The notes under the pieces are model-generated. The model was not told where the DNA came from. It did no database searches and saw nothing but the letters and a program-made list of their open reading frames with translations. This document shows, one piece after another, positions 42,801 to 61,175 of a stretch of DNA of 64,000 nt. Within the stretch, counting starts at the first letter, position 1. Every line of letters begins with the position of its first letter. A program made the translations under genes and the position numbers. The stretch comes from Artemia franciscana (taxonomy: Eukaryota; Arthropoda; Branchiopoda; Anostraca; Artemiidae), in NCBI RefSeq assembly GCF_032884065.1, contig NC_088875.1, forward strand, positions 41,243,402 through 41,307,401, read 5' to 3'.

Positions 42801-45800
42801 TTAGAAACCGTATTCCTCGTCTACTAAAACTTATGAAGAATGTTAAATATGCTCTCTCATTTTTGGCAATATATGGATTTACCCGATACATGTAATTTAT
42901 GTCAATCCGAAAAAGAAGGATGTCGTGGCGTCTCCTAACGACCTTTTGAAAGTCCAAGATTATATTTCTATCATAAATTTTTTTGTAAAGGTAGTATTGC
43001 TTAATAACAGTGGATTAAGCTTAGTCAGCTTCAACCATAAAGACTAAGACATCACCAATAGGGAAATACTGGTAAAATATTTCATTGCTCTATTCTACCT
43101 ATGTAACCTAAGTAAGTTTGGCTGCCAACTTCGTTCTTTAAAATCGCTCTTTACCGCAGCGGATACATACAGCATTGAAATTAAAGGCTTTCTTATGTCG
43201 AATACTTTTGACAGAGAATCAAACTGTGTATTTACTTCTTTGCAGATACATAGAGCATACCAGATCATTAGCAGATCTAGGGGGACCCTGTACCTCCCAA
43301 GATTTTCTTCTGGTGCTCTCTTTTCCTGTTTTTTCTCTCTCTCTTTTTAGAATAAATTTGTCAATTTGGTCAGTTATTGCCACATTTGTCACATTGCCCC
43401 CCCTTCAATTTTGCCCATTGACAACCTTGTCACATTGGTCTCCCCCAAGATTTTGATATAGATACGCCCCTGTAGCAGATCAATATCAGATGGGGCATAC
43501 TTGCGCAGTTTTGGCACTCTTTGAAGCGTTTTTCCATTGAATCTTTGGAATTAGCACATTGCCGCCCCCCCCCCCTCAAGATTTTGCCCATTGACAACCT
43601 TGTCACATTGGTCTCCCCCAAAATTTTGATATAGATACGCCCCTGCACCAGATCAATATCAGATGGGGCATACTTGCGCAGTTTTGGCACTCTTTGAAGC
43701 GTTTTTCCATTGAATCTTTGGAATTAGCACATTGCCCCCCCCCCCTCAAGATTTTCCCCATTGACAACCTTGTCACATTGGTCTCCCCCAAAATTTTGCT
43801 ATAGATCCACCCTTGCACCAGATCAATATCAGATGGGGCATACTTGCGCAGTTTTGGCACTCTTTGAAGCGTTTTTCCATTGAATCTTTGGAATTAGCAC
43901 ATTATTCAAAGAAATTCCATTGAAATAAAGCGCTTCTCTTGGATATTCGCTTAAAAATGGATGATTCAGCCTTTTCACTTTTAAGATTTTGCTATTTTAT
44001 AAGGTGTATCCGATAAAACTGTATTTGAATGAAGTTAAAAGTATCGATTTCTTCCATGGAAATTAGTTTTTCCATGGTAATCACAGGGAGGACAGGAGGT
44101 AACTTTCTGGGAGAAGAAGAGGGAAGGTCAGATCGACACCGATGAATTCACCTAGAATTACGGTTTTAAGTGAATTTACACATTCTAATTATTTCTCTTA
44201 AATGTCCCTTTGTGAATATAGCTTATAAATTTCCCAGGTTTAGTTGGATCTGAACATTTATAAAACTTTAAAGGTCTTTGTTCACGTATACTTTTTTGGC
44301 AGAATTTGTGCTTATTTTAGCCACACAGGCTTCCTAGAGCTCAATGGCTAACCATTCTAATATATTTGGTTCCTTGTATTTTTTTCTCTTATATATCCAT
44401 CCGTGTCATAAAAAAACCGCTATTGCCATGAATCTGCTATGATTTTTACTAAGTTTAAACATTTACGCATACTAAACATTTTTAAAACAAGTTAGAATAA
44501 AGCAAGAGTGAGAGAGAGAGAATAAAATAAAAAACCACGATGGAAAATATAGTATTAGGAGCTCTAGCAATTATACAGGGAACGAATGGAAACAACAAAA
44601 GTGCAAGTAAAATATTTAAAAGTGGCCTTACGTATCTTGTCTAAACGACTCTATTGAGCAGAGAGTATCTGCGATTACTGGCAAGAGATTGGGAACTCTC
44701 TCAGGAAAATCTTCAGTCATGAGATTCTCATCTGAGTAGGGACAGACGTCTAGAGTATAGTGAAACGGTGCACCAGATCTTCTTGCACTACCCAGTCCAA
44801 TACAACCAGGGGTTGAACATCCTAAGATTCTTTCTCGTAAATCTTCTACAGCTAAAAAAAGAACAAATTAAGAAATAAACAAATAACAAATATAAATATT
44901 ATCCTTAATGTGGCTGTACCTTGAAAGGAAATATTTGATTCATTTAAAATGGTTTACGAAGGCACTAGTCATGTGAAGAGCGAAGGGCTGAGTGGGAAGT
45001 AGCCTCATTATATATAGGGTAACTTCTGTTTATTTTTAGTTTTAACGTCACTCTTGTCCCGTTTGAAAAAAGACTTTCTAAAACCTAATTCGGCTGCAAG
45101 TGATAAAAACCATCAAAGCTCAGATTTGAACCCACCAAGCTGATTATTTTCTTTGTTATTACTATTATAATGTTTCATATTTTTTTTTGAGAATAGATTC
45201 ACTGGCAATTCCGAGAACGTAAAAACCCCTAGTAGGATTGTACTCCCCTAAAGTGGATTTAAGACAATTTTGTACCAAAGCACCAAAAATGGAATTCGCA
45301 AAATTTTTGCCTTTAGCATCAATTACAGCCCAATTTTTTAGCATGTATTTTCACTTACTACAGAGTATTAGGTGACAAGTTTAAGACTTTTGTTTTCTCA
45401 CCAATAACTATCTACTAGCAGTATTACTGCTTAAAAGTGAAATGGAACAAAAATCCAAATAAAAAAGATTTGATAAACATTCAGGTGAAACCTTTGGAGA
45501 GTTATCATTCCTATGTTTTATCATTTCTTTTTGGCCAGAAAACCCGTTTCAGCTTTATAAAGGAATATCAAAATAATAAAATATTAAACAACTCTGAATT
45601 TCTACACAAAATGTCTTTAAATCTTTAGTGTCTTTTTGTATTAAAAAACAAAATTAAGGAATAAGGAACTAAAGGAAGAATTCATTGATTGGTAGGACGC
45701 AAAATCCCTGGGCATCCCTCTTCCTATGTTCTCTGCTTACACTTCAACTTTAATGATAAATTTACATTAACACAAACTAAAAATATATCCTTGCCCAGTT

Positions 45801-60671: not shown

Positions 60672-61175
60672 CTAGAACGAAACATAGACACTAGTTAATG
60701 GGTAAACTCAATAGGTATTCAACTGCTTAAAGGCACGAGGACAAGCATTAAAATTGACTTTCATAGAACCTCAGTTGGTTCTTGAGGAACTAGAACGAAA
60801 CATAGACACAATTTAATAAGTAAACTCAATAGGTATTCAACTGTTTAAAGGCACGAGGACAAGCATTAAAATCGACTTCATAGAACCCCAGCTGGTTCTT
60901 GAGGAACTAGAACGAAACATTGACACTAGTTAATGGGTAAACTCAATAGGTATTCAACTGCTTAAAGGTTCGAGGACAAGCATTAAAATCGACTTCATAG
61001 AACCCCAGCTGGTTCTTGAGGAACTAGAACGAAACATAGACACAAGTTAATAAGGAAACTCAATAGGTATTCAACTGTTTAAAGGCACGAGGACAAGCAT
61101 TAAAATTGACTTTCATAGAACCTCAGTTGGTTCTTGAGGAATTAGAACAAAATATTTACACAAGTTAATAGATAA
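60601..61175 (-). repeat. Five-unit tandem array carrying a splice acceptor and exon start
   Basis: Unit starts are at 60601, 60718, 60836, 60953 and 61070 (period 117-118). Each unit holds, on the minus strand, TTTCGTTCTAG or a close form, then codons for FLKNQLGFYEVDFNACPRAF (unit 1). Units 2 and 5 share an extra base (GACTTTCATAG) that shifts the frame, and also CCTCAGTTGG for CCCCAGCTGG. Units 1, 3 and 4 keep the frame. Only unit 1 continues into the rest of the exon. Confidence 0.95.

Follow-up and report, generated by a model that had tools for sequence, protein, structure and literature searches.

Partial copies of four exons of an l(3)mbt-like gene of Artemia franciscana lie in introns of the same gene, each holding the acceptor-side end of its source exon. 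These copies are real, yet ordinary. It is very probable that they are by-products of a general process of local, same-orientation and often tandem duplication that spans exon edges, and that most have since decayed. Other genes have copies of this kind as well, both at acceptors and at donors, and thus they are not peculiar to the l(3)mbt-like gene, nor are they limited to acceptors.

The l(3)mbt-like gene

The window, which is the whole stretch of 64,000 nucleotides that was analysed, is located at C13:41243402-41307401 in a 1.27-Gb genome assembly of 6468 contigs. The l(3)mbt-like gene (L3MBTL) is on the minus strand and encodes three MBT repeats, as identified by Pfam MBT matches. Its protein is most like the solved L3MBTL3 and L3MBTL1 chains (best E 7.7e-81); these three repeats, the L3MBTL-type similarity and a C2HC finger place it in the L3MBTL / l(3)mbt family, with the zf-C2HC match scoring 21.1 bits, under the Pfam cut-off of 32.3 bits. 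The last exon listed below is SAM-like by eye only, and a Pfam search of it returned no SAM match. A human sequence served as the query for the neighbouring gene, PSMD7, whose exons lie at 7.5-30.4 kb in the window. The exons of L3MBTL that were analysed are as follows.

60402-60671, minus strand: Cys-rich exon, a source exon (splice signals, open frame)
59095-59302, minus strand: MBT1a, the first MBT1 exon, a source exon (Pfam MBT, splice signals)
54611-54831, minus strand: MBT1b, the second MBT1 exon, a source exon (Pfam MBT, splice signals)
50278-50512, minus strand: MBT2 exon
49233-49541, minus strand: MBT3 exon
44632-44851, minus strand: C2HC zinc-finger exon, a source exon (zf-C2HC E 3.3e-4, splice signals)
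41420-41693, minus strand: further exon, SAM-like by eye (boundaries by splice signals)

Copies at four acceptors

Four of the seven L3MBTL exons tested (Cys, MBT1a, MBT1b and C2HC) are accompanied, 0.1-1.7 kb away, by a partial copy of the acceptor end, on the same strand as the source exon in every case. The copies and the repeats around them are listed here.

60601-61176, minus strand: 117-bp x 4.9 tandem array across the Cys-exon acceptor (TRF, unit alignment; blastn 88-96%)
57562-57644, minus strand: decayed MBT1a copy, first ~72 nt of the exon (blastn vs 59231-59314, 77%, E 4.5e-12)
58593-58638, minus strand: possible weaker second MBT1a fragment, not established (score 43, 75% over 47 columns; blastn E 0.027)
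57925-58470, no strand assigned: high-copy dispersed repeat of ~545 bp between the MBT1a copy and its exon
55081-55149, minus strand: decayed MBT1b copy, 23 codons from the first full codon (tblastn E 1.1e-5, 70%)
54872-55082, minus strand: intronic part of an apparent old MBT1b tandem duplication
45803-45891, minus strand: decayed C2HC copy, exon positions -42 to +50 (blastn vs 44802-44893, 75%, E 1.6e-11)
45239-45690, no strand assigned: dispersed repeat between the C2HC exon and its copy

An earlier, sequence-only reading of this DNA had claimed partial copies of these four exons in nearby introns, and blastn, tblastn and a boundary test all bear it out. In the boundary test, 11 acceptors (seven of L3MBTL and four of PSMD7), 11 donors and 12 exon middles were compared with the whole window on the same strand. 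The acceptors of the Cys, MBT1a, C2HC and MBT1b exons scored 234, 93, 90 and 48 respectively, each at least 9 points above its own controls; the maxima of the Markov null were 35-40, and the highest other control was 59, for C2HC on the opposite strand. These four acceptors exceed both shuffled and Markov controls, which rules out chance similarity. An excess of transitions over transversions in the exon part of the C2HC copy (10 to 1) and in MBT1b (11 to 2) also counts against chance, with little such excess in MBT1a (7 to 6).

Three further sequences rose only 1-2 points over every one of their controls and were left out of the count: the acceptor of PSMD7 exon 3 (score 46, target 13 kb off), the donor of PSMD7 exon 5 (score 43, an A-rich target 51 kb off) and the middle of the 41420-41693 exon (score 40). 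In the same whole-window test no acceptor-end copy was detected for the MBT2, MBT3 and 41420-41693 exons, and none of the seven L3MBTL donors beat its controls. The copied part is thus the acceptor side in all four cases, as had been proposed. The proposed length of about 24 codons holds for three of them, with ~71 nt of exon copied for Cys, ~72 for MBT1a and 69-71 for MBT1b, but fails for C2HC, of which 50 nt are copied. Likewise, the description of the copies as decayed fits MBT1a, MBT1b and C2HC and does not fit the Cys units. The identities of the copies range from about 75% to 98%, and the events that gave rise to them look independent.

Architecture of the individual copies

The repeat unit of the Cys array is made up of 46 nt of intron end and 71 nt of exon. 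Identity to the unit at the exon is 88-98% (93-98% for u1-u3); the AG is intact in u1-u3 and lost in u4, the unit farthest away. Copies are direct and adjacent and hold the intron end together with the exon start; the array is a plain tandem duplication. It was found at a single place in a whole-genome search, unlike an exon fragment spread by transposons, which would recur at many. The array at 60601-61176 mixes two types of unit, since u1 and u4 have in common a frameshifting extra A and the Cys exon itself is of the type without it, pointing to duplication of a dimer or to conversion.

The C2HC copy also holds the intron end and the exon start, yet it is not adjacent to its exon, being separated from it by a gap of 0.95 kb. 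The AG is intact and is preceded by 15 pyrimidines in 19 positions, with a GTRAG at +112; in the frame of the exon a stop comes after 28 codons. Within the gap lies the 45239-45690 repeat, which has at least 45 other matches inside positions 608-1001 of the query among the 40 of 75 candidates that were scored, and whose extent was set by seven fetched loci outside the window, all seven of which align. Given this dispersed repeat, the gap is probably not original; the copy fits a tandem duplication only if the repeat and the rest of the gap arrived later. A target-site duplication flanking the interval between exon and copy is unsupported, as 141 of 500 shuffles reach its score. On the other side of the C2HC exon, between it and the next exon, three 95% identical units of 170 bp occur at 43397-43903; they are not related to any exon.

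The MBT1b copy is weak as DNA (blastn E 0.002, besides its low boundary-test score) but clear at the protein level, and judged by the protein alignment it has no AG at the place of the acceptor. The intron contains a 13-base word at 54915-54927 that recurs at 55070-55082, as well as a 40-nt block at 54998-55037 that recurs at 54872-54911 with 75% identity (score 40, which none of 500 shuffles attained). From their layout, these repeats look like an older tandem duplication, to which the exon copy conforms in part: the intronic repeats are present, but comparison of the flanks is negative. When the intron before the copy was compared with the stretch between copy and exon, the score was 28 for MBT1b (shuffle maximum 41); it was 37 for MBT1a (maximum 45) and, beyond -42, 32 for C2HC (maximum 40). 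The resemblance of these two sequences that a plain tandem duplication would produce is thus missing at all three, which counts against such an origin. RNA folding around MBT1b gave nothing unusual (z 0.75).

MBT1a is the least explained of the copies. It required a correction to the sequence-only reading, since the copy lies downstream of its exon, 1.67 kb off, a position that is not expected from simple duplication across an acceptor and that speaks against a plain tandem origin. The copy has stops in all three frames. Immediately before it is a run of 70 A at 57635-57704 (T on the gene strand), which gives this copy an extreme polypyrimidine tract. The 57925-58470 repeat between copy and exon recurs, over most of its length and with 83-90% identity, at no fewer than 39 other places among the 40 of 579 candidates that were scored; the MBT1a copy, which was inside the query of the same search, drew no match elsewhere among those 40.

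Exons and introns elsewhere in the genome

Exons of the Cpn60_TCP1 family from the same genome served as a control. Of 72 family matches, 23 exon stretches were taken and 20 counted, with flanks of at most 1.45 kb and edges set by eye from the ends of the Pfam matches and from AG and GT. One stretch, L034, was dropped as near-identical to L032. The acceptor of L038 was not placed, leaving 19 acceptors and 20 donors; the acceptor of L049, which has flanks of 0.9 kb, is probably misplaced by ~11 bases. At the 1.45-kb radius used here MBT1a itself registers only through a pyrimidine-rich match in its intron (score 50), which is not its true copy.

Copies with 78-97% identity were found at two of the 19 acceptors (L042 and L043) and two of the 20 donors (L038 and L048). 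The copies at control exons rule out that such copies are unique to L3MBTL, and those at control donors rule out strict acceptor specificity. Both acceptor copies lie upstream, and both donor copies downstream, of their exons, as expected from tandem duplication. In L043, 7.7 units of 140 bp reach up to +67 of the acceptor in an array built like that of the Cys exon; in L042 a 114-bp unit occurs twice across the acceptor, with its exonic end at +35. These two genes were named TCP1 and HSP60, respectively, by eye from their translations, the family match being Cpn60_TCP1. In L043 (G000:C18:26269582-26272812) the array occupies positions 1627-2711 with units 99% alike, and the real acceptor is preceded by several copies of its region. 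Two additional stretches with 1-kb flanks, L050 and L051, which are outside the 19 and 20, had no copy (top direct score 44). One chaperonin gene has several near-identical matches, at C14:26847253-26920642 and at C17:19683681-19695104 and 27096318-27098491; their presence on two contigs may reflect recent duplicates or uncollapsed haplotypes.

Altogether, 4 of the 39 placed control boundaries have a copy. The sequence-only reading had named exon-end copies common in most genes as an outcome that would count against it, and this is what was found in part: they do occur in other genes, but at about 10% of boundaries rather than in most genes. It had also contrasted L3MBTL with PSMD7. None of the eight PSMD7 boundaries has a copy near its exon; nevertheless the contrast is uninformative, with 4/7 against 0/4 acceptors (Fisher p 0.106).

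The background rate of local duplication was estimated from non-exonic fragments of 140 bp, scored as copied when a match of at least 48 was present within 2 kb. In the window, 10.9% of 1358 fragments have a direct copy against 2.4% with an inverted one; by halves, direct copies were scored for 15.1% of 516 fragments on the L3MBTL side and for 8.4% of 838 on the PSMD7 side. The flanks of the chaperonin genes gave 15.1% direct and 3.7% inverted (701 fragments), and 17 random 10-kb stretches, in which dispersed repeats were unmasked, gave 22.4% and 12.6% (2317 fragments). Tandem arrays with periods of 30-500 number 1.1 per 10 kb in the window, 1.4 in the random stretches and 1.2 in the chaperonin set, covering 2.6%, 6.6% and 4.0% respectively, and in the 30 kb to the right of the window they number 0.67 per 10 kb with 4.3% coverage. 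Three of 30 acceptors (Cys, L043 and L042) and none of 31 donors lie inside such arrays; as arrays cover 2.6-6.6%, three of 30 is near expectation. At the rate of the window, four copies among the 22 tested boundaries are unremarkable (P 0.24, computed with n=23). The local, repeated copying process suggested by the sequence-only reading is therefore supported, as a feature of the genome at large rather than of the L3MBTL gene or of acceptors.

Proposed origin and alternatives

Stretches of roughly 50-300 bp would be duplicated close by, in the same orientation and often in tandem, perhaps by a route like replication slippage or unequal exchange. Whenever the duplicated stretch spans an exon edge, the extra piece would acquire one splice site and part of the exon without the other site; lacking that second site, it would remain intronic and be tolerated. 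The copies are presumably neutral, and insertions may have moved those of C2HC and MBT1a off from their exons.

Within L3MBTL there is some preference for acceptors. The comparison of 4/7 acceptors with 0/7 donors gives p 0.035, that of the same acceptors with the 2/23 elsewhere a Fisher p of 0.016, and that with the background a binomial P of 0.004-0.012 (0.012 at the 15.1% rate); for all boundaries, 4/14 in L3MBTL against 4/47 elsewhere gives p 0.073. All four comparisons are post hoc. A mild excess of acceptor copies thus remains in this gene, nominal and post hoc. Pooling the three gene sets yields 6/30 acceptors against 2/31 donors (p 0.117). Such figures would suit a form of copying that is restricted to 3' splice sites, acting for example through R-loops or RNA intermediates running from branch point to exon and leaving pieces that end ~70 nt into exons. 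The exonic ends of four of the six acceptor copies do cluster there (Cys +71, MBT1a +72, MBT1b ~+69, L043 +67), and it is at acceptors that both multi-copy arrays on exon edges (Cys, L043), as well as the x2 array (L042), were seen. However, once L3MBTL is removed the pool falls to 2/23 acceptors against 2/24 donors, the ends of C2HC (+50) and L042 (+35) are off the cluster, and copies away from exons are equally frequent in the background, making this explanation very unlikely. It would likewise be a long shot to propose that tandem duplication in Artemia favours 3' splice sites, producing units of ~110-140 bp that start 45-80 nt ahead of the acceptor and extend ~70 nt into the exon, and that exon fronts keep seeding intronic minisatellites and latent decoy acceptors.

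Selection for decoy acceptors or pseudo-exons, which the sequence-only reading had also suggested, might instead keep the copies, with poison pseudo-exons or decoys serving to lower or regulate the expression of L3MBTL. An AG is indeed intact at Cys u1-u3 and in the C2HC and MBT1a copies, and entry at any of these would lead to a stop within 27 codons in all three frames, as a poison exon needs; the C2HC copy combines its pyrimidine-rich tract with the GTRAG 112 nt downstream, and from these signals a poison-exon role is conceivable for it. Yet Cys u1-u3 are so like the exon unit that an intact AG is expected in them without selection, the AG is missing in Cys u4 and at the MBT1b copy, the Cys units and the MBT1a and MBT1b copies have no GTRAG within 250 nt, and similar copies are present at unrelated chaperonin exons. 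Selection of this kind is unsupported and most unlikely. The least probable explanation of all is that whole exons were duplicated in tandem, as in mutually exclusive exons, and have since lost their donor halves. The place of the MBT1a copy, downstream of its exon, is one that an exon-sized duplicate could occupy, but no remainder of the exon follows the C2HC, MBT1a and MBT1b copies (scores of 16, 15 and 20, where shuffles average 18.1, 18.1 and 18.6), and in the Cys units the exon piece is joined straight to repeated intron sequence, which already makes such an origin unlikely there. None of the copies duplicates an exon in full, with its two splice sites and an open frame.

Local duplication across exon edges, the preferred explanation, carries a caution for annotation: exon-like pieces near true exons are expected from background duplication in the repeat-rich Artemia genome, and RNA is needed before they are called decoys or pseudo-exons. 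Were the excess at acceptors to hold across the genome, it would tie local duplication of DNA to splicing or transcription, and these in turn to the material from which new introns and alternative 3' splice sites may arise.

Comparison with known systems

In the literature searched, no paper was found that treats acceptor-end copies as a separate class. Duplication spanning an exon boundary has nevertheless already been published, and the Artemia gene is a further instance of it. In a report on the potato RdRp gene, a tandem genomic duplication across an intron-exon boundary is described (Ma et al. 2016, PMC4974935). As in Artemia, the duplicate is direct and takes in the last part of an intron, polypyrimidine tract and AG among it, and the beginning of the exon that follows; unlike the Artemia copies, which are intronic and would add stops, the potato duplicate is spliced as a new intron (PMC4974935). 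The stop codons in the Artemia copies argue against this intron-gain form. Tandem duplication of exons can also give rise to mutually exclusive exons (e.g. PMC6071210), and these share with the present case the local, direct duplication of exon and adjacent intron; they are, however, whole, spliceable and coding, whereas the Artemia copies are not.

A further parallel is a survey of 20 Ensembl genomes, the available part of which reports partial exon matches, degenerate ones included, in introns of the same gene, and finds that genes with such partial matches significantly outnumber those with full-exon duplications. That part of the survey contains no Artemia data and no division into acceptors and donors; the Artemia copies resemble what it describes in being partial exon matches in the introns of their own gene.
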